64,000 bases of DNA from Chamaelirium japonicum (taxonomy: Eukaryota; Streptophyta; Magnoliopsida; Liliales; Melanthiaceae). The notes below the pieces were generated by a model. The model had not been told where the DNA came from. It was given only the letters and a program-made list of their open reading frames with translations, and did no database searches. Made by a program: the position numbers and the translations under genes. Below are positions 10,802 to 46,930 of the stretch, piece by piece (position 1 is the stretch's first letter; each line of letters starts with the position of its first letter). The stretch is taken from NCBI GenBank assembly GCA_947650365.1, contig OX393555.1, positions 17,657,424 through 17,721,423 on the forward strand, in the 5' to 3' direction.

Positions 10802-10864
10802 ATATATAATTTACTTATGGTTGTTGGGTGGGTTCCTGAGAAAATTGGGAGCGATTTTGGCTCC
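10802..10864 (+). repeat. satellite fragment between two insertions
   Basis: It continues the interrupted monomer (TATATAATTTACTTATGG, GGGAGCGATTTTGGCTCC) up to the next insertion. Confidence 0.85.
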
Positions 10865-14940: not shown

Positions 14941-15105
14941 ATTTACTTATGGTTATCGGTAGTGGTTTTGAAAAATACCCCCACCGATAACTATAAATAA
15001 ATTATATATAAATAATAAATATATACAAATCCCATATGTCTCGATATTTGGGATTTATAAAAATATTTAAGATTGCAAGTAATCCCAAATATCGAGAGAC
15101 ACATA
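14941..15105. repeat. local inverted duplication inside the satellite
   Basis: Forward satellite at 14941-14963 (ATTTACTTATGGTTATCGGT) is followed at about 14980-15003 by its reverse complement (CCACCGATAACTATAAATAA). The region continues through AT-rich DNA to a second hairpin pair, TCTCGATATTTGGGATT (about 15038-15055) against AATCCCAAATATCGAGAGA (about 15087-15105). It is the only clear strand switch I found in the array. Confidence 0.8.
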
Positions 15106-17956: not shown

Positions 17957-17973
17957 CGGGGGCGGGGGGGGGG
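17957..17973. repeat. poly-G expansion within a satellite monomer
   Basis: The normal GTCGGGTGGGGGTC stretch is replaced here by a run of more than ten G. The same place in a class B monomer is expanded at about 48749-48765. This marks a slippage-prone spot. Confidence 0.75.
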
Positions 17974-20399: not shown

Positions 20400-22773
20400 C
20401 CAAATACAGGGAGTCTGTTAGCAATCCAAAAAATAAAGAGGAACATTACGAGACTTGTTGAGGGTATTTTGAAAAGTAGTGCTTGATTTATATATAATTT
20501 ACTTATGATTGTCGGGTAGGGGATCTGAGAAAATAAAGAGCAACTTTGGCTCCCCAAATATAGGGTGTCTTATAGCGATACAAAAAATAGGAAGGCTCAT
20601 GACGAAGATTTTAGAGGGTATTTTGGATAGGAATGCTCAATTTATATATAATTACTTATGCTTATCGAGTGAATATCTTAAGAAACTAGGGTGCTAATAT
20701 GGCTCCGTAAAAGTAAACAATCTGGTAGTAATCCAAAAAATAGGAAGACAAATAACGAGACTCTGAGTATATGTTTTGGAGAGGAGTGCTCGATTTGTAT
20801 ATAATTTACTTATAGTTATAGTATGGGGTTCCTGAGAAAATAATAAGCAATTTTGGCTCTCTAAATATAGGAAGTCTAATATCAATCCCAAATATAGGAA
20901 AAAATATAACAAGGCTTTTGGAGGATATTTTGGAGAGAGTGCTTGATTTGTATATCATTTACTTATGGTTATAGGGTGGGAGCCATAAGAAAAAAGAACG
21001 ATTTTGGTTACTCAAATATAGGGAGTCTGGTAGCGATCACAAAAATAAGAAGGAATATGGCTATACTTTTAAAGGGTATTTTGGATAGGAGTGCTCAATT
21101 TATATATAATTTAATTATAGTTATCTGGTATGGGTCCTAAGAAAATAAGGAGTGATTTTGGATCCTCAAATATTAGGAGTTTGGTAGCAATTTTAAAAAT
21201 AGGAAGGCACAAGGGAAGGCTCCCAAAGGATATTTTGGGAAGGAGTGCTTGATTTATATATAATTTATTTATGGTTGTCGGGTGAGGGTCTTGAGAAAAT
21301 AAGAAGCGATTTTGGCTTCACAAATATAGAGATCTGGAAGCAATCCCAAAAATAGAAAGTCGCAGGACGGGGCTTTAAAGGGTGTTTTGGGAAGAAATAC
21401 TTGATTTATATATAATTTATATAGGATTGTCGGGTGGGGGTGTAGAGAAAATATAAAGAAATTTTGGCTCCCCAATTATAGGGAGTCTGGTACCATCCCA
21501 AAAAAAAGGAGACACATGGCGAGGCTCTTGGAGGGTGTTTTGGGAAGAAGTACTCAATTTATATATAAATTATTTATGGTTGTGGGGTGAAAGTCCTAAG
21601 TAGATAGAGAGCGATTTTGGTTCCCTAAATATAGTGAGTTTGGTAGCAATTTCAAAAATAGGGAGGCATATGGCGCGCAAGACTTTTGGTAGGTATTTTA
21701 TGAAAGAGTGCTTGATTTATATATTATTTACTTATTATTATCAGGTGGAGGATCAAGAGAAAATAAGGGATGAGTTTGGCTCCCCATATATAGGGAGTCT
21801 AGTAGCTAGTGATTCCAACAATAATGAAGTATATGACGAAGCTCTTGGAGGATTTTTTAAAGAGGAGTGCTTGATTTGTTTATAATATACTTATGGTTAT
21901 CGGGTTGATGTTCTGAGAAAATAAGGAACAATTTTGGTTACCCAAATAGAGAGTAAGTAGTGATCCAAAAAATCAAAAGGAATGTGGGTAGACATTAGGA
22001 GCGTGCTTTAGGGATGCGTGCTCGATTTGTATATAATTTATGTATGATTGTCGGGTAGAGGTCTTGAGAAAATAGGGATTGATTTTAGCACCCTAAATGT
22101 ATGGAGTCTGGTAGTGATCCTAAAAATAAGGAGGCACATGGCTTGTCTCCTAGAGGGTCTTTTGGGGAGAAGTGTTTGATTTTTATATAATTTATTTATG
22201 GTTGTCGGGTGAGAGTTTTGAAAAAATTGGAAGCAATTTTTAACTCCCTAAATATTGGGAGTCGGGTAGCGATCGCAAAAATTAATAGACACATGTCAAG
22301 AGTCTTAGAGGGTATTTTGGAAAAGATTGCTCGATTTGTATATAATTTACTTATGGCTATTGGGTGGGGGTTTTAAAAAAATAGGGAATGATTTTGGCTT
22401 CCAAAATATAGGGAGTCAAGATGCAATCCCAAAAATAGGAAAGCACGTGGCGAGTCTCTCGAAGGGTGTTTTGGTACGTAGTGTTCGATTTGTATATATT
22501 TTACTTATAGTTATCAGATGGAGGACCTAAGGAAATAGGGAGCAATTTTGGCTCCTTAATTATAGGTTGCATGTAGTGATCCCAAAAATAGAGAGTCATA
22601 TGGCGAGGCACTTAGAGTGTGTTTTGGGGAGGAATGCTTGATTTGTATATAGTTTAATTATAGTTGTTGGGTGAGGATCTTGAGAAAATAGGGAGTGATT
22701 TTTTCTCTCCAAATATAAGGAGTCTGGTAGCGATAAAAAAAATATAAAGGCATATGACAAGGCTCTTGAATGG
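20400..22773 (+). repeat. satellite array, class A, start of ordered HOR domain
   Basis: Here the first run of the five ordered diagnostic monomers appears: AACATTACGAG (about 20425), GGCTCATGACGA (20595), GACAAATAACGAG (20745), an AAATATAACAAGG type (20900) and ATATGGCTATAC (21056). The same order recurs through to 46.9 kb. Confidence 0.75.
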
Positions 22774-23100
22774 TGTTGGAGGATTAGTCCCACCTTGATA
22801 AAGTCGAGGGCTGAAATGAGCCATATATGTATGATGGGATCTCATTTTAATAGGTTTTGAGATAGAGAAAATCTAAAATGGTATTAGAGCCTAAGCATAA
22901 CCATATTACTCACCTACCGGGTATGGTCCCCACACATCTATTATCCACGTGTCAAGGACCATAAAAGATTGGTTTGCACAAGAGGGAGAGTGTTAGAGGA
23001 TTAGTCCCCACCTCGGTAAAGTAGATGGCAGAAATGATCCTTATATGTATGATGGGATCTTATCTCAATACTTGGGTTTTGAGATAGAGAAAATCTCACA
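22774..23100 (+). mobile_element. TRIM inserted in satellite, 327 bp
   Basis: The 5' LTR (22774 to about 22876) starts TGTTGGAGGATTAGTCC; the 3' LTR (22991-23100) starts TGTTAGAGGATTAGTCC and ends CACA. The two share TATATGTATGATGGGATCT and GAGATAGAGAAAATCT. TGGTATTAGAGCC at 22879 follows the 5' LTR and is nearly the initiator Met-tRNA primer site. AAGAGGGAGAG just before the 3' LTR is the polypurine tract. The internal part is only about 115 bp with no coding. Flanking bases AATGG (22769-22773) and AAGGG (23101-23105) form a 5-bp target duplication with one change, and joining across it restores the satellite. Confidence 0.9.
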
Positions 23101-23163
23101 AAGGGTACTTGGGGGAGTGTCCTTGATTTACATATTTATAGTTGTTGGATGAGATTTTTAAAA
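23101..23163 (+). repeat. satellite fragment between TRIM and foldback element
   Basis: A shortened monomer remnant (GGGTACTTGGGGGAGTG, TTGATTTA, ATAGTTGTTGG) between two insertions. Confidence 0.75.
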
Positions 23164-23393
23164 CAAAAATTTTTAAGAAATAGAACAAAAATTATTAATA
23201 ATTTAATAAACGGAACAAAAGTTGGATAATTGAAAAAAAAGGAATAGTACGCCATCTCAAATGGCGTAAAGTATTTACGCCATTTAAGATGGCGTAAAAC
23301 TGAAGGGGTAAATTAAAATATCAAAATTGCCCTTTCTTTACACCATTTTAAATGGCGTAAATTCCCTATAAATAGTGCGTAAAGTCCTAATAA

Positions 23394-23760
23394 GTTTTAG
23401 GATTTAGGGTTAGGGTTTAGGGTTTTAGGGTTAGGGTTTGGGGTTTTAGGTTTTAGGTTTTAGGATTTAGGTTTTAGGGTTAGGGTTTAGGGTTTAGGGT
23501 TTAGGGTTAGGGATTAGGTTTAGGGTTTAAGGGTTTAGGGGTTAGGGTTAGGGTTTAGGGTTTTAGGTTTTAGGATTTAGGGTTAAGGGTTTTAGGTTTT
23601 AGGGTTTAGGGTTTTAGGGTTAGGGTTTAGGGTTTTAGGGTTTAGGGTTTTTGGTTTTAGGGTTTAGGGTTTAGGGGTTAGGGTTTAGGGGTAAGGTTTA
23701 GGGGTTAGGGTTTTAGGGCTTCAGTTTGACGGTTTACGTTTTGGGTTTAGGGTTTAGGTT
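23394..23760 (+). repeat. degenerate telomere-like TTTAGGG repeats, left arm
   Basis: Mixed TTTAGGG, TTAGGG and TTTTAGGG units with single-base indels, G-rich on the plus strand. TTTAGGG is the standard plant telomere unit. The irregular units, interior place and inverted partner show that it is not an active telomere. Confidence 0.85.
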
Positions 23761-23795
23761 AAAAAAAATATTTTTTAACTTCGTCAATGTAACAT

Positions 23796-23980
23796 ACTAA
23801 ACCCTAAACACTAAAACCCTTAACCCTAAAACCCTAAATCCTAAAACCTAAAACCCTAAACCCTAACCCTTAAACCCTTACCCTAAACCCTAAACCCTAA
23901 AACCCTAAACCCTAACCCAAAAACCTAAACCCTAAATCCTAAAACCTAAAACCCTAAACCCTAACCCTAAATCCTAAAAC
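23796..23980 (-). repeat. degenerate telomere-like repeats, right arm (CCCTAAA on plus strand)
   Basis: Inverted counterpart of the left arm, about half as long, so repeat number has drifted between the arms. Units are ACCCTAAA, AACCCTAAA and CCTAAATCC. Confidence 0.85.
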
Positions 23981-24223
23981 TTATTATGACTTTACTCCAT
24001 TTGAAATAGGGAATTTATGCCATTTGAAATGGCGTAAAGAAAGGGCAGTTTCGGTATTTTAATTTGCCCCTTCAGTTTTATGCCATCTCAAATAGCGTAA
24101 ATACTTTACGCCATTTGAGATGGCATAATATTCCTTTTTTTTTTTTTTTTCCAATTATATAACTTTTGTTCTGTTTATTAAATTATTAATATTTTTTGTT
24201 TTATTTTTCAAAAATTTTTGTTC

Positions 24224-25586
24224 TTAAAAAAATAGAGAGCAATTTTGGTTCCCCAACTATAGGAAGACTGGTAATGATCCCCAAAAAAAGAAAGTTAATG
24301 GCAAGGCACTTGGAGAGGATTTAGATAAAAGTTCTCGATTTGTATATAATTTTCTTATGGTTATCAGATATGGGTCTTGAAAAAATAGAAAATAATTTTG
24401 GATCCGCAAATATAGGGGGTATGGTAATGATTAAACAAATAGAGAGAAACATGAAGAGGCTCAAGGAGGCTATTTTGGGGAGTAGTGCTCGATTTGTATA
24501 TAATTTACTTATGGTTATCTGGTGAAGGTTTTGAGAAAATAGATAATAAATTTTGCTTCTTGTAAGTAGGGAGTCTGGTTGCGATCCAAAAAATAGGAAG
24601 GCTCATGACAAGACTCTTGGAAGGTATTTTGGGTATGAGTGCTTGATTTATATATAATTTAGGTATGGTTATTGATTGAAAATCATGAAAAAATAGGAAG
24701 TGATCTTAACTCACCAAATATCGGAAGTCTGGTATCTATCCCAAAAAATTGAAGGCAAATGACAAGATTCTTGTAGGGTGTTTTGGGAAGGAGTACTTGA
24801 TTTGTATATAATTTACTTATGGTTGTCGGGTAGGTATCCTAAGAAAATAGAAAGCGATTTTAGCTTTCCAAATATAGGGAGTTTGGTATCGATCCTAAAA
24901 AAAAGAAAGGCAAATGGCAATACTCTTGTAGGGTGTTTCGGGGAGGATTGTTCAATTTGTATATAATTTACTTATGGTTATAGAGTGGGGGTCTTGAGAA
25001 AATCGAAAGGAATTTTAGCTCCCAAAATATAGGGAGTCTGGTATCGATCCTATATATATAGAGGCACATGATGAGGCTCTTGAATGGTATTTTGAGGAGG
25101 GTACTTGATTTATATTTTTCTAGTTATGGTTATAGGGTGGGGTTCCTAAGAACTTAGGGTGTAGTTATGGCTCCCTAAATATAGGGAGTCCTGTAGTGAT
25201 CTAAAAAATAAGGAGAAATATGGCTATACTTTTGGAGGGTGCTTTTGATAGGAGTGTTCGATTTGAATATAATTGACAAATGGTTATTAGGTCCTAAAAA
25301 AAGGAGCGATTTTGGTTCCCCAAATATAAAAAGTCTAGTAGCAATCCCAAAAATAGGAACGTATTTATGGACGCTTTTAGAGGGTGTTTTTGGAAGGAGT
25401 GCTCAATTTTTATATAATTTATTTATGGTTGTTAGGTGGGGGTCATAAGAAAATTGGGAGCGATTATGGCTTCCCAAATATAGGGAGTATAGACGCAATC
25501 CGAAATATAAAGAGGTACATGGCATGACTTTTAGAGGATATTTTAGGGAGAAGTACTTGATTTGTATATAATTTACTTAGGATTGT
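24224..25586 (+). repeat. satellite array, class A HOR domain (between insertions)
   Basis: Resumes with AAAATAGAGAGCAATTTTGG. The ordered types recur at about 24430, 24600, 24755, 25070 and 25215. Confidence 0.88.
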
Positions 25587-25870
25587 CATACCATTTTGTA
25601 ACATCCGCCCCAAACACACAAGATTTTGTCCGCTCTGCCTGTGCCCGCACGAGAACTTCCCAGGGAGGTTACCCATCCTAGTACTACTCTCGTCCGAGCA
25701 CGCTTAACTACGGAGTTCTTACGAAATCCGTAGCGGCGCACGGTTTTAAAACGCGTCTTCTATGTTTGGGAGGGGAAATTATATAAGTAGCTCAGGATCT
25801 CCTTCTCTCCAGGCGAAGTGGGGCTAACTCATGGCCTAGTACACCTCACCTCACCTCATCCATCTTGGCA
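25587..25870 (-). mobile_element. Cassandra-type LTR with 5S rRNA sequence, truncated element
   Basis: Read on the minus strand, the LTR begins TGCCAAGATGG (at 25870) and ends GATGTTACA (at 25597). It is followed by AAATGGTAT, the first bases of an initiator Met-tRNA primer-binding site, and then satellite. The LTR carries a 5S rRNA-like block on the same strand. A TRIM LTR containing 5S sequence is the defining mark of Cassandra. Only one LTR plus the start of the PBS remains, so the internal part and 3' LTR were lost, perhaps by recombination in the array. No clear target duplication. Confidence 0.85.
25647..25735 (-). repeat. 5S rRNA-derived segment inside Cassandra LTR
   Basis: On the minus strand it contains AAGCGTGCTCGGACGAGAG, GTAGTACTAGGATGGGT and CCCTGGGAAGTTC. 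These match the plant 5S rRNA internal promoter region (A-box around AAGCGTGCT, C-box around GGATGGGTGACC) with several changes and one inserted base. It is not a 5S gene: the 5S 5' part is largely unmatched and the C-box is altered. Confidence 0.85.
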
Positions 25871-28800
25871 TTCCCGGTCCTAAGAAAATAGAAAGTAATT
25901 TTGGCTTCCCAAATAGAGGGAGTCTAGTAGCAATCCCAAAAATAGGGAGACAAATGGCGAGGTACTTGAAAAGTGTTTTAGGGAGGAGTGCTCGATTTAT
26001 ATGTAAATTACTTATGGTTGTCATGTGGAAGTCCTGAGAAGATACAGATTAATTTTGGCTCCCTATATATCTAAAGTATTGTAACGATCCTAAAAATAGA
26101 GAGGCATATTATGAGGCTCTTGGAGTATATTTTGGGGAAGAGTGCTCGATTTATATTTTCTTTACTTATTGTCGTTATGTGGAGGGTCTTGAGAAAATAA
26201 GGAGTGTTTTTAGATCAATAATTATAGGGAATCTGGTAGCGAACCCAATAATAGGGAGGCACTAGGAGAGGCTCTTGGAGAGTGATTTGGAAAGGTATAC
26301 TTGATTTGTTTATAATTTACTTTTGGTTATCATTTTAGGGTTCTGTGAAAATAGTGAGCGATTTTTGCTTCCCAAATATAGGGAGTCAGGTAGTGATATA
26401 AAAAAACGAAAGCATATTAGTAGACTAGAAGGTGTTTTAATGAGTTCTCAATTTGTATATAGTTTACTTATGATTATTAGGTAGGGGTCATGAGAAAATA
26501 GGAAGTGATTTTGGCTCTCTAAATGTATAGAGTCTGGTAGCGATTCAAAAATAAGGAGGCATATAGCAAGGCTCTTGGAGGGTGTTTTGGAAAAGAGTGC
26601 TCGATTTGTATATAATTTACTTATAATTATTAGGTGGGGGTCCTGAAAAAAATATGGAGCGATTTTGGCTCCCCAAATTTAGGGAGTTCGATATCGATAC
26701 AAAATATAGGGAGACATATGGTGAGGTTCTTGCAGGGTGTTTTGGGAAGGGTGCTCGATTTGTATATAATTTTCTTATGGTTGTTGGGTGGGGGTCCGAA
26801 AAAAATAGGGATCAATTTTGGCTCCCCAAATATAAGGAGTTTGGTAGCAATCCAAAAAATAGAGAGAAACAAGACGAGGCTTTTGGAGGGTGTTTTGGGG
26901 AGTAGTGCTCATTTTGTATATAATTTTTTTTATGATTATTGGGTGGCAGTCCTGAGAAAATAGGAATCAATTTTGGCTTCCAAAATATAGTGAGTCTGGT
27001 TACCATCTAAAAAATAGGGAGGTCTATGGCTAAGCTCTTGGATGGTTTTTTGGATAGAAGTGCTTGATTTGTATATAATTTATTTATGGTTATTAGGTGG
27101 GTATCTTGTGAAAATAAGAAGTTATTTTAGCCTATAAATATAGAAAGTCTGATAACAGTCCAAAAAATAGGAAAGCAAATGGTTAGACTTTTGGAGGGTG
27201 CTTTAGAAAGGAGTGCTCGATTTGTATATAAGTTACTTATGGCTGAAGGGTGGGGGTCTTTAGAAAATAGGAAGCGATTTTGGCTTCCTAAATATAGAGA
27301 ATTCAGTATTGATCCCAAATATAGGGAGGCAGATGGTGAGGATCTTGGAGGGTATTTTGGGAAGGATACTCGATTTGTATATTTATTACTTATGGTTGTA
27401 GGGTGGGGGTCCTGAGAAAATAGGGAGCGATTTTGGATCCCCAACTTTAGGGAGTTGGTTAGTTATCCCAAAAATAAGGTGGAATAACGCTATACTTTTA
27501 GAGGGTGTTTTGGGAAGGAGCTCCCGATTTGTATATAATTTGCTTATAGTTATCGGGTCTGGGTCCTAAGAAAATAATGAGTGATTTTGGCTCTAAAAAT
27601 ATAAGAAGTCTGGTAGCAATTCCAAAAATTAAAAGGCACTTGAAGTGGTACCTAGTGGGTGTTCTAGAAAGAAGTGCTTGATTTTTATATAATTTACTTA
27701 TGGTTGTTGGGTAGGGGTCCTAGAAAAATAGGAAGCGATGTTGGCTCTCGAAATTCAGGGAGTCTGGTATCGATCCTAAATATAGGGAGGCACATGACGA
27801 GGCTCTTGGAGGGTATTTTAGGGAGGATGCTCGATTTGTATATTATTTACTTATGGTTGTAGGGTGGGGGTCTTGAAAAATTAAAGAGCTATTTTGGCTT
27901 CCCAAATATAGGAAGTCCGATAATGATCCCAAAAATAAGGAAGAATATGACTATAATTTTGGAAGGTGTTTTAGGTAGGAGTATTCGGTTTATCGGGTGG
28001 GGGTCCTAAAAAAATAAGGAGCAATTTTGGTTCCTCAAATATAAGGAGTCTGATAGAGATCTCAAAAATAGGAAGGCACATGGGGATGCTCCTAGAGGAT
28101 ATTTTGGAAAGGAGTACTTGATTTTTATATAATTTTTTTATGGTTGTAGGTCCCGGGACCTATGAAAATAGGGAGTAATTTTGGCTCTCTAAATATAGGA
28201 ACTCTGAAAGATTTTCCTAAAATAAGGAGGCAGAGGGTGAGGCTTTTAGAGGATGTTTTGGGGAGTAGTTCTCGATTTGTATATAATTTCTTAGGATTTT
28301 CAGGTGAAGGGCCGGAGAAAATAGAAAGTAATTTTGGCTCTTTTAATAGAGGGAGTTTAGTAGCATTCCCAAAAATAGGGAGGCACATGGAGATGCTCTT
28401 AGAGGGTGTTTTGGGGATGAGTGTTTGATTTATATATAAAGTACTTATGCCTGTCGGGTGGAAGCCCTGAGTAGATAGGGTATGATTTTTGCTTACTATA
28501 AATAGGAAGTATGGTAACAATCCCAGATATAGGAAGGCACATTACGAGACTATTGGAGGGTATTTTATGGAAGAGTGCATAATTTGTATATTATTTACTT
28601 ATTGTTGTCGGGTGAAGGGTTTTGAAAAAATAAGGAGTGATTTTGACTCCCTAAATATAGGGAGTCTGGTACTGATCCCAATAATAGGGAGGCATATGGT
28701 GAGGCTCTTGGAGATGTTTTGGAAAGGATTACTCGATTTATTTAGAATTTACTTATGATTATCAAATTGGTTTCTGAGAAAATAGAGAGTGATTTAGGTT

Positions 28801-31642
28801 TTCCAAATATAGGAAGTCTGGTAGTGATCTTAAAAAAAAGAAACCATATTGATAGACTTGTGGAAGGTATTTTTAGGAGGAGTACTCGATTTGTTTATAA
28901 TTTACTTATGGTTATTGGATAAGGGTCTTATGAATTTAAGAAGCAATTTTAGCTCCTCAATTATAGAAAGTTTGGTAGCGATTCCAAAAGTAGGGTGCAA
29001 ATAGCGAGGCTATTGAAGGGTATTTTGGAGAGGAGTACTTGATTTGTATATAATTTACTTATAATTATTGGGTGGGGGTCTTAAAAAAAATAAGAAATAA
29101 TTTTGGCTCCCAAAATATAAGGAGTTCAGTATCGATAAAAAATATAAGAAGTCACATGACGTGGCTCTTGAAAGGTCCTTTGAGAAGTGTGTTCAATTTG
29201 TATATAATTTTCTTATAGTTATTACATAGGGATAAGGAAAAAATAGGGAGCAATTTTGGCTCCCTAAATATTAGGGGTCTGGTAGCAATCCAAAACATAG
29301 AGAAGAACATGACGAGGCTCTTAGTGGGTGTTTTTGGAAGTAGTATTAGTTTTATATATAATTAACTTATGGTTATCGGGTGAGGCTCTAGAGAAAATAG
29401 AAAGTGATTTTGGCTCTACAAATATAATGAGTATTATAGCGATCCAAAAAATAGGGAGGCTCATGACGAGGTTCTTTGATAGTATTTTTAGTAGAAGAAC
29501 TCGATTTGTATATAGTTATCGGGTGGATGTCTTGAGAAAATAAAGTATGATTTTGGCTCAGCAAATATAGGGAGTCTGGTAGTAATCCAAAAAATAGGAA
29601 GGTAAATAGTGAGACTCTTAGAGAGAGCCTTAGGGAGGAGTGCTCGATTTTTGTATAATTTATTTATGGTTGAAGGATGGGGGTTTTGAAAAAATAAGAA
29701 CTGATTTTGGCTCCCTAAATATAGGGAGTCTGGTTTTGATTTTAAATATAGGTAGGAATATGGCGAGGCTCTTGAAAGGTGTTTTGGGGAGGGTACACGA
29801 TCTGTATTTTATTTACTTATGGATGTAGAGGGATCCTGAGAAAATTAAGAATGATTTTGACTCCCTAAATATAGTTAGTTAGTGATCCCAAAAATAAGGA
29901 GGAATATGGTTATACTTTTGAAGGATGTTTTAGATAGGAGTTCTCCATTTATATATAATTTAGGTAGTGATCTCAAAAATAAAAAGGCACTTTAAAAGTC
30001 CCCTAGAGGATATTTTGGAAAGGAGTGCTTGATTTGTGAATAATTTACTTACGGTTATTAGGTGGGGATCCTTAGAAAATAAGGAACAATTTTGGCTCCC
30101 CAAATATAAGGAGTCTGGAAGTAATCCCAAAAATAGGGAGGCGCAAGTTAAGGCTTTTAGATGGTATTTTAAGGAGGAATGCTTGATTTATATATAATTT
30201 ACTTAGGATTATCGGGTAGGGTCCTAAGAAAATATAGAGCAATTTTGGCTCCCCAAGTATTGGGAGTCTAGTAGCAATCCCAAAAATTGGGTGGTGAATG
30301 GTGAGGGTCTTGGTGGGTATTTTAGGAAGGAGTTTTTGATTTAAATATAAATTAGTTATGGTTTTCTGGTGGAAGCTCTGAGAAGATAGGGTGTGATTTT
30401 GGCTCCTTAGATATAAAAAGTTTGGCAACAGTCGCTAAAATAGGAAGGTACATTGCAAGGCTTTTAGTAGATATTTTGGAGAAGAGTGCTCAATTTGTAT
30501 ATTATTTACTTATAGTTGTCAGGTGGAGGGGCTTAAGAAAATAAGGAGTAGTTTTGGATCTCCAAATATAGGGAGTCTGGTAGCGATCCTAATAATAGGG
30601 AGGCACATGGTGAGACTCTTGGAGGGTATTTTGGAAATGAGTACTCGATTTGTTTATAATTTACTTAGAGTTGTTGGGTTGGGGTTCTGAGAAAATATAG
30701 ACTGATTTTGGCTTTCTTAATATAGAGAGTTTGGTAGTAATCTTAAAAAAAGAAAAGCATACTGGTTGATTTTTTGTGAGTGTTTTGGAAAGAAGTGCTC
30801 GATTTTTATATAATTTACTTATAATTATCGGGTGGGGGTCTTAAGAAAATAGGAAGTGATTTTGATTCCTCAACTATAGGGGATCTAGTAGCGATTTCAA
30901 AAATTGGGAGGCACATAGGGAGGCTCTTTGTTTTAGAGAGGAGTGCTCGATTTTGATATAATTTACTTATAATTATCAGGTGGTGGTCCTAAAAAAATAG
31001 GGTTCAATTTTGGCTCCTTGAATATTGGGAGTTCGGTAATGATCTAAAATATAGGGTGGCTCTTGGAGGGTGTTTTGGGAAGGGTGCTCGATTTATATAT
31101 AATTTATTTATTGTTATCATATGAGGGTTCTGAAAAAATAGGGAATAATTTTGGGTCTCCAAATATAAGGCTTCTGGTAGCGATCCAAAAAATAGAGAGA
31201 AACATGATGAGGCACTTAGAGGGTGTTTGGGGAGTAATGCTCGATATATATATAATTTACTTATAGTTATCGGGTGTTTGCCTTGAGAAAATAGGTAAAA
31301 TATAGAGAGTTTGGTAGAGATTCAAAAAAAAAGGAGGCTCATGATGAGGCTTTTGGATGGTATTTTGGGTAGGAGTGCTTGATTTATTATAATTTAGTTA
31401 TAATTATCAAGTGGGTATCCTAAGAAAATATAAGGATATTTTGGCTCGATAAATATATGGAGTTCAGAAGAAATCTATAAAATAGGAAGGCTAAAGGCGA
31501 GTCTCTTGGATTGTTTTTTGGGAAGGAGTGCTTGATTTGTATATAATTTACTTATGGTTATCGGGTGGGGGTCCTGGGAAAATAATAAGCGGTTTTGGGT
31601 CCCCAAATATAGGGTATCGATCCAAAATATAGGGTATCATAC
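25871..31642 (+). repeat. satellite array, class A HOR domain
   Basis: Ordered types recur: at about 26855, 27175, 27325 and 27482; a partial extra run at about 27790 and 27945; and a full run at 29295, 29458, 29610, 29755 and 29908. Monomers between these runs vary in number. Confidence 0.9.
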
Positions 31643-32190
31643 ATAGTTATCAAGGCGTCAAGGCGAGACTAGACGCCCGAAAGGAGCCTAGGAGGCGTAG
31701 CCTTACGTGCATAGGTGTGGCCTTATATGCATAGGCATTTTCCAAGCATGGGTATATATGTATAGTCTATACTTGCAGGTATATATGTAATAGGAAGGAA
31801 TATAACACCTTACTAACCTAAAATTGAACATATTATAGTCAAATACATGCAATACAATGACATATACATAGTATAAACATGTAAACAACAAAAGAAATAA
31901 ATAGAATACAAACACTTGCTAATTTAAAATTGAGCATATTCTAATTAAATGTATGCAACACAAGGAGCACATAGTATAAACAAGTATACAACAAAATGAA
32001 CAAAGAAAATAAGGGCGGGTTGGGTTTTACTTAAAAAAATAAATAAAAACCATTGTCTAAAACTAGGCGTGCACCTAGCCTAGGTGTGCCTAGGCACACC
32101 TAGGCCACCGCTTAGTGAGCGCCTGGGCGTACTGGGGCCTACCTGTCTCCGGGCGCCTAGTGCGTCTTGGCCCGCGCCTTGACAACAATA
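31643..32190. mobile_element. 548-bp MULE-like non-autonomous element in satellite
   Basis: The ends are short inverted repeats: TAGTTATCAAGGCG on the left and TTGTTGTCAAGGCG for the reverse complement of the right. The flanking 9 bases are GTATCATAC (31634-31642) and GTGTCATAT (32191-32199), matching at 7 of 9 with only transitions. A 9-bp duplication points to the Mutator superfamily. GC-rich subterminal AGGCG words lie at both ends and an AT-rich middle has no transposase. The minus-strand open frame in the middle is tyrosine-rich low-complexity reading. Confidence 0.75.
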
Positions 32191-38100: not shown

Positions 38101-41100
38101 GATTTGTTTATAATTTACTTATGGTTGTCGGGTTAGTGTTTAGTGAAAATACAGAATTATTTTGGCTTTCCAATTATAGGGAGTCTGGTAGTGATAGCAA
38201 AAAAAGGAAAGTATATTGGTAGACTTTTGGAGGGGGTTTTAGGGAGGAGTTCTCGATTTAAATATAATTAGTTGTGATTATCGGGGTAAGGATCTTGAGA
38301 AAATATGAAACAATTTTGGCTTTCCAAATATAGATGATCTAGTAGCGATTTAAAAAATAGGGAGGCACATAGCGAGGCTCTTAGAGGGTGTTTTGGGGAG
38401 GAGTACTCTATTTGGATATAGAAAGTCTGATATCGATCCAAAATATAAGGAGGCACTTAGCAAGGCTCTTGGAGGGTGTTTTGGAAAGGGTGCTCAATTT
38501 GTATATAATTTACTTATGGTTATCGGGTGTGGGTCTTGAAAAAATATAGAATAATTCTGGCTCCCCAAATATAAGGATTCTTGTAGCGATCCAAAAATAG
38601 AGAGGAACATGACAAGGTTCTTGAAGGTTATTTTGTGGAGTAGTGTTTGATTTATATATAATTACTTATGGTTATCGATTAGAGACCCATAGTAAATAGT
38701 GAGTAATTTTGGCTTCCCAATATATGGAGTCTAGTAGCGATCTGAAAAAAAAGAGGCTCATGATGAGGCTCTTGGATGCTGTTTCGGGTAGGAGTGCTCG
38801 ATTTATTTATAATTTACTTATGGTTATCAGGTGGATGTCCTGAGAAAATATAGAGATATTTTGCTCCATAAATGTAGGGAGTTTGGTAGTGATCCAAAAA
38901 ATCGGAAGGCAAATGCCGAGACTCTTGGATGGTGATTTTTGGTGGAGTGCTCATTTATATATATTTTACTTATGGTTATTGGGTGAGGGTACTAAAAAAA
39001 AGGAAATAATTTGGGCTTCCCAAATATAGGGAGTCCGGTATAAATCCCAATTATAGGGAGACATATAGTGAGGTTTTTGGAGGGTATTTTGGGGAGTGAT
39101 CGATTTGTTTATTATTTACTTATGATTGTAGGGTAGAGGTTCTTAGAAAACAAGAAACTATTTTGGCTCCGCAATTATAGAAATTATGGCAGCGATCCCA
39201 AAAATAAGGTGGAATATGGCTATACTTTTGGAGGAGGTTTTGGGTAGGAGTGCTTGATTTGTATATAATTTACTTTTTTTTATCGGGCGGGGTCCTAAAA
39301 AAATAAGGTGTGATTTTGGCTCCTCAAATATCGGGAGTCTGGTAGTGATCTAACAAATATAAAGACTACTTAGGGAGGCTCCTAGAAGGTGTTTTTGAAA
39401 GGTGTACTTGATTTGTATATAATTTACTCATGGTTATCTGGTGAGGGTCCTAAGAAAATAGAAAGCAATTTTGGCTCCTTAAATATAGGGAGTCTGTTAG
39501 TAATCCAAAGAATAGGAAGGCTAATGATGAGGCTTTTGGATTGTATTTAGATAAGGGTGCTCGATTTGTATATAATTTTATTGTGGTTATCATGTAGGAG
39601 CCCTGAGAAAATAAGGAGCTATTTTGATTATGCAAATAAAGAAAGTCTGATAGCGATCCAAAATATAAGAAGGCAAATATCGAGACTCTTAGATGGATGT
39701 TTTGGGAAGGAGGGCTTGATTTATATATAATTTACTTAAGGTTATGAGGAGTTCTAAGAAAATAGAAAGTTATTTTGGCTTCCCAAATATAAGAAGTCTG
39801 GTATCGATCCTAAATATAGGAAGGTACATGGCGAGGTTCTTTAGAGGATATTTTTGGGAGGGTGCTCGATTTGTATATTATTTACTTATATTTATCGGGT
39901 GGGGGTCCTGAGAAAATATGGAGTGATTTTGGTATCCCAAATATAGTAAGTTTGGTAGTGATCCAAAAAATGAGAAGGAATATGGCTATACTTTTGGAGG
40001 GTGTTTTAGGTATGAGTGCTCGATTTGTATATAATTTACTTATGGTTTTCTGGTAGGGGTTCTAAGAAATGAAGAACTGATTTTGGCTCCCTAAATATTA
40101 AAAGCCTGGTTTCGATCCCAAAATAGGTAGGAATATAGGAAGGCTCTAGATAGTATTTTGGAAAGGAGTACTCGATTTGTATATAATTTACTTATGATTA
40201 TTGGGTGGGGGTCCTAGAAAAATAGGGAGCAATTTTTTTTCTCCAAATTTAGGGAGTCTAGAAGCAATCGCAAAAATCAAGAGGCATAAAGCTAGAATTT
40301 TAGAGGGTGTTTTGTCGATGAGTGCTTGATTTGTATATAATTTACTTAGGGTGGTCGGGTGGGGGTCCTAAGAAAATAAAGAGTGATTTTAGCTTCCTAA
40401 ATAGAGGGAGTCTAGATGCGATCCCAAAAATAAGGAAGCACGTGGCGAGACTCTTGAAGGGTGCTTGGAGGAGAGTTCTTGATTTATATATAATGTACTT
40501 ATGGTTATCGAGTGGTCCCCTAAATATGAAGAGTTTGGTAATGATCTAAAAAATAGAGAGGTGATTATAAAATCTTATAAAGGATGTTTAGAGAAAAGTG
40601 CTCGATTTGGATATAATTTACTTATCGTTGTCAGGTGGGCGTTATAAAAAAATGAAGAATAATTTTTGCTCCCAAAATATAGGAAGTCTGATAGTGATCC
40701 AAAAAATAGAGAGGAATATGACGAGGCTCTAGGTAGGTGCTTGAATAGTAGTGCACATTTTGTATATACTTTACTTATGGTTGTTGGGTGGGGGTCCTAA
40801 GAAAATAGGGTGCGATTTTGACTCCTTAAATATAGATAGTCTGGTAGCGATATAAAATATAGGGAGGCTTATGATGAGGATCTTAGAGGGTATTTTTGGA
40901 TACGAGTGCTCAATTTATATATAATTTACTTATGATTATCGGGTAGGTATCCTGAGAAAATACCGACCTATTTTGGCTCTAGAAATATAGGGATTCTAGT
41001 TGCGATCTAAAATATGAAAAACAAATGATGAAACTCTTGGAGGGTATTTTGGAAAGATGTGCTCGATTTGTATATAATTTACTTATGGTTGTCGGGTGGA

Positions 41101-44100
41101 GATCCTTAGAAAATAAAAAATGATTTTGGTTTCCTAAATATTAGGAGTCCGGTATCAATCCCTAATATATGGAGGCACATGGTGAAGCTCTTGGATCGTA
41201 TTTTAAGAAGGGTGCTAAATTTGTATATTATTTAGTTATGGTTATAGGGTGGGGGTTCTAAAAATATTGGGAGTGATTTTGGTTATATAAGCATAGAGAG
41301 TTTAGTAGAGATTCCAAAAATAAAAAGGAATATAGCTATACTTTTGGGGGGTGTTTTAGGTATGTGTGCTCGATTTGTATATAATTTAGTTATGGTTATA
41401 AGGTGGGGGTCCTAAGAAATTGAGGAGTGATTTTGGCTCCCCAAAGATAGGGTGTTTAGATACGACCCCAAAAATATAAAGGTACATGGCGAGTCTCTTG
41501 GAGGTTTTTTTTTTTGAGGAGTACTCGATTTATATATATTTTATTTTATTTTATAGTTGTTGGTTGGGAGACCTTAGAAAATAAGAAGCAATTTTGGTTC
41601 CCAAAATATATATTGTCTTGTAGCAATCCCAAAAATAGGGGGACACATGGCAAGGCTCTTGGAGGTGTTTTAGGGAGGAATATTTGATTTGTATATAATT
41701 ACTTAGGTTGTTAGGTGGGGGTCTTAATAAAATAGGGAGTGATTTTGGCTCCCTAAATATAGGAAGTCTAGTAGTAATCCTATAAATAGAGAGGCACATA
41801 GCATTATTAGAGGGTACTTAGGAAAAGTACTCGATTTATATATAACTTACTTATGGTTGTCAGTTGAGAGTCTTAAGAAAATAGAGAGCGATTTTGGCTC
41901 CCCAAATATAGGGTGTCTAATTATAATCCCAAAAATAGGGAGGTTCATGGCAAGTCTCTTAGAGGGTGTTTAGAGAGAGTTATTCGATTTATATATAATT
42001 TATTTATGGTTGTCGGGTGGGGGTCCTGAAAAAATAGGAAATAAATTTGGCTCCACAAATTTAGGGAGTCTGGTAGCGATCCAAAAAATAGAGTGTAACA
42101 TAATGAGGCCCTAGGAGGGTGTTTTGGGGAGTAGTGCTCGATATATAAATAATTTACATATGGTTGTTGGGTGAGTGTCCGGAGAAAATAGAGAGTGATT
42201 TTGGATCTTCATATGTAGAGTATCTGGTACTGATCCGAAAAATAGAAAGGCTCATAATAAGCTTTTTTAAAATTATTTTGAATAAGAGTGCTTGATTTGT
42301 ATATAATTTACTTATGGTTATTATATAGGTATTCTGAGAAAATAGGGAGCTATTTTGGCTCCACAAATATAGGGAGTCTACTAGTGATCCAAAAAATAGG
42401 AAGACAAATGATGAGACTCTTGGATGATGTTTTAGGGAGGAGTGCTCAATTTATATATAATTTACAAATGGTCTTCAAGTAAGGATCTTGAGAAAATTAA
42501 AAGTGGTTTTGGCTCTCAAAATATAGGGAGTCTTGTATCGATCCCAAATATAGGGTGGCACATAGAGAGGCTCTTAGTGGTATTTTATGGAGGGTGCTCT
42601 ATTTGTATATTATTTACTTATAGTTAGAGGGTGGGTCTTAAGAAAATAGAAAGTAATTTTGGCTTCCAAAATATAGGGAGTCTGGTAGCGATCCCAAAGA
42701 TAGGGAGATATATGGGGAGGCTCCTAGAGAGTATTTTGGGATGGAGTGTTATAGGGAGGCTTCTCGAGAGTCTTGAAGCAATCACAAAAATAGAAAGGCA
42801 CTGGGTGAGGCTTTTATAGGGTGTTTTGGGGAGGAATGCTCTATTTGTATATAATTAACTTAGAGTTATAAGGTATATATCTTGAGAAAATTGGGAGTAA
42901 TTTTGGCTCCCTAAATATTAGGAGTTTGGTAGCAATCACAGAAATAAAGAGACATATGGCGAGTCTCATGGAGATAGATTTAGAGCGGAGTGCTTGATTT
43001 ATATATAAATTACTTAAGATTGTCGGGTGAAAGCTCTAAGAAAATAAGGAATAATTTTGGCTCCTTATATATAGGGAGTTAGGTAGCGATCCTAAAATAA
43101 AGAGGCACATTGCGAGTCCCTTGGAGGATAATTTAGGGAAGAGTTTTTGATTTTTTTATTATTTACTTATTATTGTTGGGTGATGGGTCTTGAGAAAATA
43201 AGGAGCAATTTTAGATCCATAAATATAAAGAGTCTGGTAGTGATCTCAAACAATAGAGAGGCACATGGTGAGACTCTTTAAGGGTGTTTTGAAAACGAGT
43301 ACTTGATTTATTTATAATTTATTTATGATTATTGTGTTGGGGTTCTTAAAAAATAAGGAATGATTTTGGCTTTCCAAATATAGGGAGTCTATAGTGATCT
43401 CATAAAAAGGAAATCATATTGGCAAACTTTTGGAGGGCGTTTTGGGGAAAAGAACTCAATTTATATATAATTTACTTATGATTGTCTGGTGGGGGTCTTG
43501 AGAAAATTGAAAGCTATTTTGGCTCACCAAATATATGAAATATTGTAGCAAGTCCAAAATAGGGAGAAATTAGGAAGAAGTATTCAATTTGTTTATAATT
43601 TATTTATAATTATCGGGTAGGGGTTTTAAAAAAAATACGGAGCGATTTTGGCTCCCCAAATATAAGAAGTCTGGTATCGATCCAAAATATAGGGAGGCAC
43701 ATAACGAGACTCTTAAAGGGTGTTTTTGAGAGGAATATCGATTTGAATATAATTTAGTTACAGTTATCGGGTGAGGGTCTGGAAAAAATACAGTGCAATT
43801 TTGGCTCCCCAAATAAAGTGAGTCTAGTAGCGATCTAAAAAATTTAGAGGAACATGATGAAACACTTGGAGGGTATTTTAGGGAGTGGCGCTCGATTTAT
43901 ATATAATTTAATTATGGTTATCGAGTAAGGGTTTTAAAAAAATTGGGAACGATTTTAGCTCTCCAAATCTAGGGAGTTTGGTAGCGATCTAAAAAATAAA
44001 GAGGCTCATGACGAGGCTCTTAGATGGCATTTTGGGAAGGAGTGTTTGATTTGTATATAATTTACTTGTGGTTATTGGGTATGTGTCTTAAAAAAATATT

Positions 44101-46860
44101 TTAGCTCCGCAAATATAGGGAGTCAAGTAGCGATCGAAAAAATAAGAAGGCAAATTATGAGACTTTTGGATGGTGTTTTGGGGAGGAGTACTTGATTTAT
44201 ATATAATTTAGTTATAGTTGTTACGTAAGGATTCTAAAAAATTAAGAGGTAATTTTGGCTTTCCAAATATAAGGAGTCTGGTATCGATCCTAAATATTGA
44301 GAGGCAATTGGTGAGGCTTTTGGAGGATATTTTGGGAGGGTGTTCGATTTATATATTTTATATTTTACTTATAGTTGTAAGGTAGGGATCTTAAGAAAAT
44401 AGGGAGTGATTTTGACACTCCAAATATAGAGAGCCTGGTAGCTATCCTAAAAATAAGGAAGAATATGACTATACTTTTGTAGGATATTTTGGATAGGAGT
44501 GCTTGATTTTTATATAATTTACTTATGGTTATCTGGTGGGGGTTTTAAGATAATAAGGTGCGTATTTGGCTCCCAAAATATAGGGAGTCTTGAAGCAATC
44601 CCAAAAATAGGGAGGCATAATATGAGGCTTTTAGAGGCTCTTTTGGGGAAGAGTGCTCGATTTATATATAATTTAGTTAGGGTATCGGATGGAGGTCCTA
44701 GTAAAATAGGAAAAAAATTTTGCTACTCAAATATAGGGAGTCTAGTAGCCATCTTAAAAATAGGGAGGAGCATAGCGATGTTTATAGAGGGTGGGTATTT
44801 TAAGAAGGAGTGCTTGATTTATATATAAATTACTTATGGTTATTGGGTGGAAGACTTGAGAAGATAGGGAGTGATTTTAGCTCCATAAATATAGGGAGTT
44901 TAGTAGCGATCCCAAAAATAGGGAGACATATGGTGTGTTTATTGAAGTATATTTTAGGAAAGAGTGCTCAATTTGTATATTATTTACTTATTATTGTCGG
45001 GTGGAGAGTCTTGAAAAATAAGGAGCAATTTTGGCCTTTCCAATATAGGGAGTCTGGTAATGATCTCAATAATAGGAAGGTATATGGCGAGGCTCGTGGA
45101 GGATATTTTGAAGAGGCATGCTTGATTTGTCTATAATATACATATGATTCTCGAGTTGGGGTTCTAAGAAAAAAGGAAGTGATTTTGGCTACCCAAATAT
45201 TGGGAGTCTTGTAGTGATTTCAAAAATAAAAAGGCATATGGGTAGACTTTTGAAAGGGTATTTTGGGAAGGAGTGCTTGATTTGTATATAATTTACTTAT
45301 GGTTATCGGATAGAGTCTTGAGAAAATAGGGCGCAATTTTGGCTTCCCAATTATAGGGACTTTGATAGCAATTCAAAAAATAGGAAGGCACATGGCGAGT
45401 CTCCTAGTGGGTATTTTGGGAAGAAGTGCTTATTTTTTATGTAATTTATTTATTATAGTCGGGTGGGGGTCCTGAGAAAATAGGGAGTAATTTTTGGATC
45501 ACCAAATATAGGAAGTCTGGTAGTAATCACAGAAAATAGTAGGCATATAGCGAGACTCTTTGAGGGCTTTTTAGAGAAGAATACTCGATTTATATATAAT
45601 TTACTTATGGTGATTGGGTGGAAGTCTTGAGAAAATAGAGAGCAATTTTGTCTTCAAAAATATTAGGAGTCAAGATGTAATCCCTAAAACAGGAAGGCAT
45701 ATAAAGAGTCTTTTGGAGGGTGTTTAGTGAGGAGCGGTCGATTTGTATATATTTTATTTATGATTATTCGGATGAGGACCTGAGAAAATAGAAAGATATT
45801 TTGTTTTCCCAAATATAGATTGTCTGGTAGCAATTCCAAAAATAGAGAGGCACATGGTGAAGCTATTAGAGGGTGTTTTGGGGATGAATGCTCGATTTTT
45901 ATATAATTTACTTATGGATGTCGGGTGGTAGTCCTGCAAAAATAGGGAGTGATTTTGGCTCCCTAAATATAGGAAGTCTGATAGTGATCTCAAAATTAGG
46001 AGGTACATGGCAAGGCTTTTAGAGGGTTTTTTTTGGGAGAGTGATTGATTTATATATAATTTACCTATGATAGTTGGATAGGAGTTTTGAGAAAAGAGAG
46101 AGTGATTTTGGTTTTCAAAATATAGGGAGTTTGAAAATAATCCCAAAAATAGGGAGGCGCATGGCAAGGCTCATGGAAGGTGTTTATTGAGAAGTACTTA
46201 ATTTGTATATAATTTACTTATGATTGTCGGGTGGGGGTCTGAAAAAATAAGGAACAATTTTGGCTCATAAAATATAGAGTTTGGTAGCGATCTGAAAAAT
46301 ATAAAGGAACATGATGAGGGCCTGTGAGGGTGTTTTGTGGAGTAATGCTTGGTTTGTATATACTTTACTTATGGTTATCTGTTGGGGTTTCTGAGAAAAT
46401 AGGGTATGATTTTGGCTCCAAAAATATAGGGTATCTAGTCGCGATCCGAAAAATATTAAGGCTCATAATAAGGATCTTCGAGGGTATTTTGGGTGGGAGT
46501 GCTTGATTTGTATATAATTTACTTATAGTTATCGGGTGGGAATTCTAAGAAAACAGGGAGCGATCCAAAAACTATGAAGGCAAATAATGACTCTTGGAGG
46601 AATGCTCGATTTATATTTAGTTTGCTTATGGTTATCGGGTGGAGGTTCTGAGAAAAGAAAACAATTTTAGCTCCTCAAAAATTAGGAGTTCGGTATCGAT
46701 CCAAAATACAGGGAAGAATACGGGGAGGCTCCTAGAAGGTATTTTGGGAGATGTGCTCGATTTTGGCTCTTAGGAAAATATGGAGCGATTTTTGCTCCCC
46801 AAATATAGGGATTCTAATAGATATCCCAAAAATAAAGAGGAATATGGCTTTACTTTTGGA
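32191..46860 (+). repeat. satellite array, class A HOR domain, uninterrupted
   Basis: About 14.7 kb of head-to-tail monomers with no foreign insertion seen. Type A1 (AACATGACGAGG with GTAGTGCTC) recurs at about 32335, 34890, 36665, 38600, 40715, 42090, 43850 and 46300. It is followed by A2 (GGCTCATGACGAGG), A3 (GGCAAATG), A4 (CAAATATAGGGAGGCAC with TATATTATTTAC and GTAGGGTGG) and usually A5 (ATATGGCTATAC). Confidence 0.92.
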
Positions 46861-46930
46861 GGGTATGTTACCAGGCTTGCAGCAATCCCAAAAATAGAGT
46901 GCATGTTACCAGGCTTGTAGAGGGTGTTTT
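46560..46930 (+). repeat. class A to class B transition zone with truncated monomers
   Basis: Several monomers are internally deleted here: GGGAGCGATCC joined directly at about 46557, and GCTCGATTTTGGCTC joined at about 46755. ATGTTACCAGGCTTG is duplicated at about 46865 and 46907. Class A words end and class B words begin across this zone. Confidence 0.7.

Follow-up and report, generated by a model that had tools for sequence, protein, structure and literature searches.

The window, that is, the whole stretch of 64 kb analysed here, carries two classes of satellite DNA, class A on the left and class B on the right (Table 1). One strand holds 348 of the 349 satellite profile hits, as in a head-to-tail array of one monomer family. 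Between 19.9 and 46.9 kb, class A consists of 165 monomers of about 152-154 bp each, which follow one another in a cycle of 13 types (A to M, about 1.9-2.0 kb), lengthened in places by five further types (N to R, 18 in all). The cycle occurs head to tail about 13 times between 20.1 and 47.0 kb, in full or partial copies whose length ranges from 5 to 18 monomers. The copy beginning at 38,318 is distinguished by a truncated A monomer at its start, in which profile column 103 is joined to column 11. The class A order fades leftwards: the 12.2-19.9 kb part gave no significant order in its own test (z 1.2), although the monomer order of 16.8-19.5 kb can still be aligned with that of 20.4-24.5 kb (score 17.6 against a best of 13.2 in 12 permutations).

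Table 1. Satellite segments of the window and stretches interrupting class A, with the runs of types C to G found by the labels of the 18-type model.
Feature	Position	Strand	Composition	C to G run	Basis
Class A, left part	12242..19939	+	patchy fit to the class A order; 16.5-19.3 kb labelled A-R		profile hits, model labels
Copy	20088..24400	+	18 types, A-R; interrupted between 22,784 and 24,246	full, 20.4 kb	collinear copy C5:30.018-30.024 Mb, 85%
Copy	24401..26512	+	C-D-E-E-F to M; 5S-bearing insert 25,588-25,902	full, 24.4 kb (E doubled)	model labels
Copy	26513..28951	+	16 monomers: A-H then F-M, F-G-H doubled	full, 26.8 kb	model labels
Copy	28952..30866	+	complete 13 types, A-M, 1,915 bp	full, 29.3 kb	model labels
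Partial copy	30867..31594	+	A-E, then insert 31,641-32,182	partial C-D-E, 31.2 kb	model labels
Copy	32183..34699	+	B-R, 17 monomers	full, 32.3 kb	model labels
Copy	34700..36318	+	11 monomers, without B and E	partial C-D-F-G, 34.9 kb	collinear duplicate C7:17.8135 Mb
Copy	36319..38317	+	complete 13 types, A-M, 1,999 bp	full, 36.6 kb	86% duplicate at C7:17,814,944
Copy	38318..40667	+	A-H then D-I, P, R	full, 38.6 kb; partial D-E-F-G, 39.5 kb	model labels
Copy	40668..41895	+	C-D-E-F-G then directly P-Q-R; without H-I-J-K	full, 40.7 kb	comparison with C6 and C7:17.81 Mb
Copy	41896..43520	+	11 monomers, without B and G	partial C-D-E-F, 42.1 kb	collinear with C6:9.12 Mb
Copy	43521..46110	+	17 monomers, A-R without H	full, 43.8 kb	88-90% matches C7:17.8096 and C6:9.127 Mb
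Partial copy	46111..47003	+	B-H, bordering class B	full, 46.3 kb	model labels
Class B	47008..64000	+	mean identity 0.80, own order; continues downstream in L011-L013		monomer comparison, order test
Class A gap	14,976-15,073		partly reverse-strand satellite		
Class A gap	22,784-23,091		no satellite match		
Class A gap	23,167-24,246		no satellite match		
Class A gap	25,588-25,902		no satellite match; 5S-bearing		
Class A gap	31,641-32,182		no satellite match		

Five stretches longer than 60 bp without satellite match interrupt class A in the window and none interrupts class B, so that foreign insertions lie in the old array and are rare in the young one, as in dead satellite layers, with class B judged within the window only; in the downstream locus L013, class B is satellite over only 86%. 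Runs of TTTAGGG/CCCTAAA at 23.4-24.0 kb sit inside a long inverted repeat. A head-to-head telomere fusion was considered for them and rejected, because the inverted repeat has no match at the collinear C5 site and an insertion fits better. That the DNA comes from a plant is indicated by a PMR5N/PC-Esterase gene, a domain pairing of plants, and by TTTAGGG-like repeats.

Order of the monomer types

The original prediction was a degenerate higher-order repeat in which five marked monomers (A1 to A5) follow each other in fixed order at 14 places. In the marker search, A1, A2 and A5 were allowed one mismatch at most, and A3 and A4 were accepted as exact matches only; exact copies in the 64-kb window number one for A1 and three for A2. 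When the marked monomers from 20.0 kb on were compared by reading with the types of the fitted 18-type model, type C comprised 9 of the 11 monomers carrying A1, type D 7 of the 8 carrying A2, and types E and G all those carrying A3 (5/5) and A5 (10/10), respectively. Marker A4 is unspecific, its 11 carriers being 5 monomers of type F and 6 of type K. Against 5,000 permutations, A2 was followed by A5 at +3 monomers five times (0.5 expected; matched by none of the permutations), A1 by A2 at +1 four times (0.55 expected, P 0.0002), A1 by A5 at +4 five times (P 0.0002), A2 by A3 at +1 three times (P 0.0014) and A4 by A5 at +1 three times (P 0.02), and the single succession of A3 and A4 at +1 was not significant (P 0.30).

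By the labels of the fitted 18-type model, the run C-D-E-F-G is present at all 14 places, complete at 10 of them and partial at the other 4. The predicted order therefore stands, and the five monomers as a whole unit do not, since C to G are a sub-run of 13, in some copies 18, types. Consecutive type-C monomers are spaced by 1.15-2.56 kb, apart from one interval of 4.0 kb, which contains about 1.46 kb of mostly inserted sequence. A dot plot at 80-90% identity, which had been proposed as a check, would not reveal this order, because the copies in the window are only 74-78% identical in register. The other proposed check, clustering of the monomers without regard to order, returned labels in recurring rather than random order, with a lag-1 mutual information of 1.28 against 0.52 for 13 clusters (z 17) and a z of 20 for 18 clusters.

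In addition, pairs of similar monomers tend to be followed, one step along, by pairs that are similar as well (r 0.148; z 22.5 relative to 300 permutations of the order); the same correlation reaches r 0.214 in 19.9-46.9 kb, where purine/pyrimidine and gap states only still give r 0.201 (z 25) and gap patterns alone give no order signal (z -0.8). When monomer order was aligned, 115 monomers between 20.1 and 40.1 kb found partners in 29.0-46.9 kb, with a score of 131.7, whereas none of 12 permutations exceeded 13.2. For a circular model of the 165 monomers in 5 folds, the held-out gain was 490 at 12 types, 597 at 13 and 651 at 17, against -141 for permuted order at 13 types; models with 16-20 types fit equally well or better than 13, and under a weak prior the gains were negative for all type numbers up to 24, still above the permuted ones. 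In 19.9-46.9 kb, 91% of the 164 steps follow the cycle order against 7% with permuted labels, where the labels come from the fitted model and the steps from M to A and from M to N both count. Among single lags, 46 monomers gives a stronger signal than 13 or any other. A super-repeat of 46-47 monomers is not claimed, as same-type pairs are barely closer at lags 45-48 (0.770) than at lags 12-14 (0.762); blocks may nevertheless have been duplicated at a second level, because lag 46 is the strongest and these pairs are slightly closer.

Divergence of the copies and related loci

Monomers of the same type are 0.758 identical (734 pairs) and those of different types 0.709 (13,012 pairs); the labels had been fitted on these very data, a concern that the held-out test answers. 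Global alignment with free end gaps can slide and leaves shifts ambiguous; register was judged by in-register identities and by the alignment of monomer order. The copies at 28,952 and 36,319 are 0.770 identical in register and 0.692-0.717 when shifted by 1-6 monomers. Among five copy pairs that were slid along each other, the in-register peak is clear in two only; the other three reach 0.738-0.746 in register, barely over the best shifted values of 0.733-0.739, because gains and losses break the register. Seven copies in the window are about equally far from one another (pairwise identity 0.739-0.779, that is, 22-26% different), and same-type identity is almost flat with distance (0.765 within 3 kb, 0.750 beyond 20 kb). 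The decay is thus star-like. In 19.9-46.9 kb, the substitutions C>T and G>A (0.234 and 0.224) far exceed A>G and T>C (0.028 and 0.029). Class A is a head-to-tail family with a recurring type order, in which monomers at the same position of different copies are more alike than those within a copy; its copies are too far apart for a homogeneous (live) higher-order repeat, in which they are near-identical, and it has the characters of a divergent one, with more than 10% divergence and an order still detectable.

Collinear copies of class A segments are found on C5, C6 and C7 at 85-90% identity. Four monomers, H-I-J-K, which follow G at C6 and at C7:17.81 Mb, are missing from the window near 41.4 kb, which bears out the prediction that monomers were lost or gained between runs. 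The C6 copy, in which the state before class B was sought, ends in an AT microsatellite at the equivalent of 46.8 kb. At C7:57.93 Mb the multimer itself has been amplified in tandem, as three units of 11-12 monomers (same-type identity 0.858-0.871, different-type 0.70); in the window, the order suggests that the multimer was likewise the unit of amplification. The B-G part of these units is nearest to the window copy at 38,318 (0.843; six others 0.750-0.779) and the I-M part to that at 36,319 (0.843; five others 0.740-0.794), so the unit is a hybrid matching halves of two neighbouring window copies, and it looks like an exchange between neighbours that fed a new array. The truncated-A junction of the copy at 38,318 recurs at C7:17.81 Mb and in two of the units at C7:57.93 Mb. 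Furthermore, the order is kept in two stretches of 21 monomers each that are not collinear copies, at C1:37.49 Mb (z 6-8) and C4:25.47 Mb (z 5-11), which by their own test have little order (z 1.1 and 3.2); it is absent from 10 of 12 monomer sets elsewhere to which the window-trained order was applied. The best 40 of 6,086 candidates scored for the family are spread over 12 large contigs, and most of these contigs have them at several positions. An 18-letter motif of the satellite had no match in the literature searched, and the plasmid collection held no match to it.

Origin of class A and comparison with known systems

Class A is very probably an old, decayed higher-order repeat of a plant satellite of about 152-154 bp, as is supported by the tandem hybrid at C7:57.93 Mb, the collinear copies on C5, C6 and C7 and the order on C1 and C4. 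The degenerate higher-order repeat of the original prediction is thus upheld by held-out likelihood, order-free clustering, order permutations and related loci. The nearly flat raw identity by lag would suit a plain monomeric satellite whose order is chance or an alignment artefact; however, order permutations fall far short in several tests and the order is repeated at related loci, and because of the permutation results this reading has virtually no chance of being right, unless the cutting into monomers was in error. Random duplication of blocks of arbitrary lengths, in which the 13-mer was never the repeating unit and the cycle is a by-product, would agree with the segmental copies of arbitrary length on C6, C5 and C7:17.81 Mb, with the best lag of 46 and with the variable copy length, but it is improbable in view of some 13 cycles in succession with nine steps in ten in order, of the tandem unit of about equal length at C7:57.93 Mb and of an array of the same family on C12 that has a plain unit (lags 5, 10, 15, 20); moreover, serial duplication should presumably make neighbours closer, and identity hardly drops with distance.

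As to where such a repeat belonged, class A may once have been the array of an active centromere, which died out as the younger class B took over within it, a course suggested for the human alpha satellite layers; its divergence would have come after homogenisation was lost. Class A does flank class B, lying to its left within the window and to its right at C7:17.8096-17.820 Mb (the right flank, 17.7614-17.8119 Mb, is known only from search hits, from 17.803 Mb on), it is more divergent in 3-kb bins (0.70-0.72 at 21-45 kb against 0.76-0.82 for B), within the window it alone carries the insertions described above, and human dead layers, in the part of the source drawn on here, have mean identities of 0.71-0.85 (PMC2729386). 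The outermost bin, at 12-15 kb (0.756), nevertheless diverges less than 21-45 kb, which a simple gradient would not give, and the distribution of the best 40 matches is unlike one centromere each, so a relic centromere seems unlikely. We lean slightly towards a dispersed heterochromatic satellite that was never centromeric and owes its order to multimers that were amplified and moved; several loci per chromosome among those 40 candidates and non-centromeric arrays in higher-order repeats in poplar and willow, as described in the portion cited (PMC12046899), speak for it, though class A may still have a centromeric past.

For the decayed higher-order repeat, unequal exchange or break-induced replication would have duplicated multimers, and amplification and homogenisation would then have stopped. 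Point mutations, for the most part the C>T and G>A changes that methylated silent DNA is expected to undergo, would have made the copies drift apart, and small blocks of monomers may have been lost or doubled through misaligned recombination, leaving what appears to be order surviving without homogeneity. Most likely, class A now does nothing of its own except to be packed as silent chromatin. A wider scheme, which we put forward tentatively, is a stack of satellite waves like the human alpha layers, in which an old 13/18-type family (C1, C4, C5, C6, C7), a younger class B unit and a composite A-like/B-like unit might each have spread between loci and been re-amplified. If true, layers read by monomer order would be a long record of how centromeres or heterochromatin turned over in plants, one that escapes searches based on identity.

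It is usually the near-identity of their copies by which higher-order repeats are recognised. Such repeats are already known, also in decayed form, and class A is a deeply decayed plant example with a readable history, in which the order is still legible when copies differ by a quarter. It tells the kinship of the copies, the places of missing monomers and the sequence of events, and so keeps a record of the copying and movement of this DNA; genome-wide reading of order could test the spread of satellite families between plant chromosomes.

The closest parallels are the divergent repeats and dead layers of human alpha satellite, which, in the parts of the sources used, share with class A head-to-tail monomers near nucleosome length, a fixed type order, a divergence above 10% once homogenisation stops and what looks like an older class flanking a younger one (PMC9549924, PMC2729386), whereas copies of live human repeats are described as 1-2% divergent (PMC9549924). 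Class A differs in being a plant satellite with several positions per chromosome and an only putative centromeric history, and in that its outer part is not the most divergent. The centromeric higher-order repeats of Brachypodium, poplar and willow likewise consist, as far as described in the cited parts, of satellite multimers duplicated together, array by array (PMC10910784, PMC12046899). The Salicaceae study called units by TRASH 'maxdiv 5', according to the section cited (PMC12046899), and such a search would presumably not report copies that are 22-26% different. Palv148 and Salix180 of the Salicaceae are, like class A, dispersed and arranged in higher-order repeats, both in non-centromeric arrays, but in the same portion of that study their monomers are said to resemble one another more than the centromeric ones do, whereas class A is strongly decayed (PMC12046899).

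Monomer order and the unit of class A

The genome comprises 1.52 Gb in 3,253 contigs, and the window is C7:17,657,424-17,721,423 (C numbers denote contigs; positions without one are those of the window). In a profile search, satellite fragments begin at 10.4 kb and the array occupies everything from 12.2 kb to the window end apart from inserts, with 348 of 349 matches on the plus strand, the profile having been made from the window itself. The array is divided into class A (starts 12.2-46.9 kb), with a mean pairwise identity of 0.718 (n = 220 matches), and the less divergent class B, with 0.802 (n = 125). From the monomer-order alignment onwards, matches aligned over less than 75 columns were dropped, so that 215/220 and 124/125 were kept. 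Inserts and the neighbouring gene are listed in the table.

Features in and beside the satellite array
Feature	Window position	Description	Evidence
PMR5N/PC-Esterase gene	4,619-8,833	two exons ~3 kb apart; close to satellite edge	domain matches
217-bp insert	10,586-10,802	splits satellite monomer; TATAT on both sides	
Insert with two ~100-bp direct repeats	22,784-23,100	repeats GGATTAGTCCCACCT...; present at collinear C5 site too	
Long inverted repeat	23,155-24,229	telomere-like inner arms; arm pairs 80-88% complementary	
5S-bearing insert	25,588-25,902	5S rRNA-like stretch 25,642-25,756, minus strand	Rfam RF00001, 42.2 bits
Insert	31,641-32,182	ends partly inverted copies of each other; internal ~106-bp direct repeat	

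The 5S-bearing insert looks like a candidate solo LTR of the Cassandra type. Nothing at the collinear C5 site matches the inverted repeat, whose insertion most simply postdates the making of the C5 copy.

Monomer order in class A was examined by scoring all monomer pairs for rare variants in common. When a pair shares rare variants its right-hand neighbours tend to share them too (r 0.148, z 22.5 against 300 order permutations), and monomer-order alignment of 20.1-40.1 kb with 29.0-46.9 kb paired 115 monomers at a score of 131.7, against a maximum of 13.2 in 12 permutations. At 19.9-46.9 kb the signal persists with purine/pyrimidine and gap states alone (z 25), while gap positions by themselves carry no order signal (z -0.8). 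Clustering blind to order gives the same answer, the lag-1 mutual information reaching z 17 with 13 clusters and z 20 with 18.

The unit was defined with a circular type model of the 165 monomers at 19.9-46.9 kb, whose cross-validated (held-out) gain is 490 at 12 types and 597 at 13 and then flat (651 at 17, 612 at 20), against -141 at 13 types for one permuted order. These positive gains come from stronger priors; with a weak prior the gains are negative up to 24 types, yet above those of permuted order. The decoded core consists of 13 types, A-M, extended by N-R in three copies, which start at 20.1, 32.2 and 43.5 kb. Losses and doublings also vary the copies, for example a doubled F-G-H at 26.5-29.0 kb. 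Diagnostic variants mark most types, such as G>T at profile column 84 in type C (92% vs 3% elsewhere) and T>G at column 113 in type I (100% vs 1%), the types having been fitted to the same data. The original prediction of five marked monomers in fixed order is borne out: the markers A1-A5 correspond to types C, D, E, F and G (K is tagged by A4 as well), and all 14 sites listed for them have a C-G run, ten in full and four in part, as matched by reading. To the left of this region, the order of 20.4-24.5 kb can still be traced by alignment in 16.8-19.5 kb (score 17.6), but tested by itself 12.2-19.9 kb shows no significant order (z 1.2).

Copies, hybrid unit and decay

Three stretches elsewhere are collinear with the window: C7:17.81 Mb with 34,855 to ~41.4 kb (43/47 monomers, 0.867), C6:9.123-9.130 Mb with 34.4-34.7 and 40.2-46.8 kb (43/47, 0.895) and C5:30.018 to about 30.023 Mb with 19.6-25.9 kb (29/31, 0.851). 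Being of common descent with the window, these copies do not test its order independently. Beyond the equivalent of 41,288, both the C6 and C7:17.81 Mb copies have four extra monomers, H-I-J-K. Between the two loci their identities are 0.887, 0.864, 0.947 and 0.864 in register, against 0.62-0.74 out of register. The window is without this block, and its loss there is the simplest reading, in line with the monomer loss earlier deduced from variable spacing.

Three tandem units lie on the opposite strand at C7:57.93 Mb, 40 Mb from the window. They read A,B,D-G,I-M; A-G,I-M; and A-G,I-L (11, 12 and 11 monomers), with B-to-B spacings of ~1.56 and 1.78 kb and same-type identity of 0.858-0.871 against 0.70 between different types. 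Their B-G part is nearest the window copy starting at 38,318 (0.843; six other copies 0.750-0.779) and their I-M part the copy at 36,319 (0.843; five others 0.740-0.794), copy 38,318 having no I-M and so being absent from the latter comparison. In addition, copy 38,318 opens with a truncated A monomer joining profile column 103 to column 11, a junction also found in two of the three units and at C7:17.81 Mb. From these nearest copies and the common junction it follows that the unit matches window 37.5-39.3 kb, spanning the border of the neighbouring copies 36,319 and 38,318, closed on itself. Such a hybrid could have arisen by out-of-register exchange of adjacent copies or by excision as a circle, models of which are described in PMC8997354.

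Class A is heavily decayed. Same-type identity is 0.758 (734 pairs) against 0.709 between types (13,012 pairs), and seven window copies are 0.739-0.779 identical pairwise. Same-type identity is nearly flat with distance, from 0.765 at <3 kb to 0.750 at >20 kb (Spearman -0.07, P 0.045). This star-like pattern would fit a single amplification followed by independent decay. When copies are slid by whole monomers, two of five pairs are clear in register (0.770 vs at most 0.717 shifted; 0.780 vs 0.737) and three barely exceed the best shift (0.746/0.733, 0.738/0.735, 0.740/0.739), because gains and losses of monomers break the register. Changes from the consensus at 19.9-46.9 kb are mainly C>T (0.234) and G>A (0.224), reverse transitions being 0.03. 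An excess of C>T and G>A is the expectation for deamination in methylated DNA, and the class A bias appears to match it.

Order at other loci

The window-trained model was run on 12 monomer sets from 21 of 28 loci, leaving out L002-L004, L006, L007 and the satellite-free L009 and L010. Window order is kept in two sets of 21 monomers each, C1:37.49 Mb (z 6-8) and C4:25.47 Mb (z 5-11), neither of which is a collinear copy, since the monomers they match best are scattered in the window; their own-order test is weak (z 1.1 and 3.2). The window order is absent from the other ten (z -2.6 to 1.7), seven of which have an order of their own, including the C12 minus strand with a clear five-monomer period (lags 5, 10, 15, 20), C7:35.70 Mb (lag 27) and C4:60.37 Mb (lags 57 and 49); the own-order test found none at C9:61.51 Mb, the minus part of C6:30.21 Mb and C2:30.26 Mb.

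Satellite matches lie on both strands at L023-L025 (C12:58.606-58.636 Mb) and L027 (C6:30.206 Mb). C231 and C10:51.41-51.48 Mb have parallel matches of near-equal scores on opposite strands, perhaps reflecting an unplaced alternative copy of the same region.

Class B, layering and known systems

Downstream of the window class B goes on, with 211 B-like monomers out of 213 in loci L011-L013. It has its own order (held-out gain 583 at 14 types vs 147 permuted; z 19-21 over the following 40 kb). Within 47,008-64,000 its strongest lag is 27 matches, and short monomers joining profile column 125 to 43 show by hand a series of seven spacings twice running at ~54.4-61.7 kb (period ~3.64 kb). Further on, L014 (C7:17,751,424-17,761,423) has a composite unit, with four copies of an A-like block, seven monomers long and in one case six, set between B-like blocks. 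Identity is 0.79-0.92 in register and 0.58-0.79 when shifted; this unit does not follow the window's class A order (z 0.6). From C7:17.803 Mb on, matches of 69-78% do not tell A from B. At 17.8096 Mb class A appears again with an 88% match to 43.5-45.7 kb, and at C7:17.812-17.822 Mb (L035 and L033) it makes up 39 of 39 monomers. With the contig read to 17.7614 Mb and from 17.8119 Mb on, older A therefore lies on both sides of younger B.

Judged from sequence, class A would most likely be the product of a past amplification of multimers that has fallen silent and is in decay, and it may possibly be a relic centromere. Higher-order repeats are known in plants (PMC10910784, PMC12046899) and decayed ones in human (PMC9549924, PMC2729386); a decayed plant example was not recognised in the portions of open-licence literature searched, and one may still be in print. 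The flanking of younger B by A on both sides is like the layers of human alpha satellite, but unlike in simple layering, divergence within the window's class A does not peak in its outer part.
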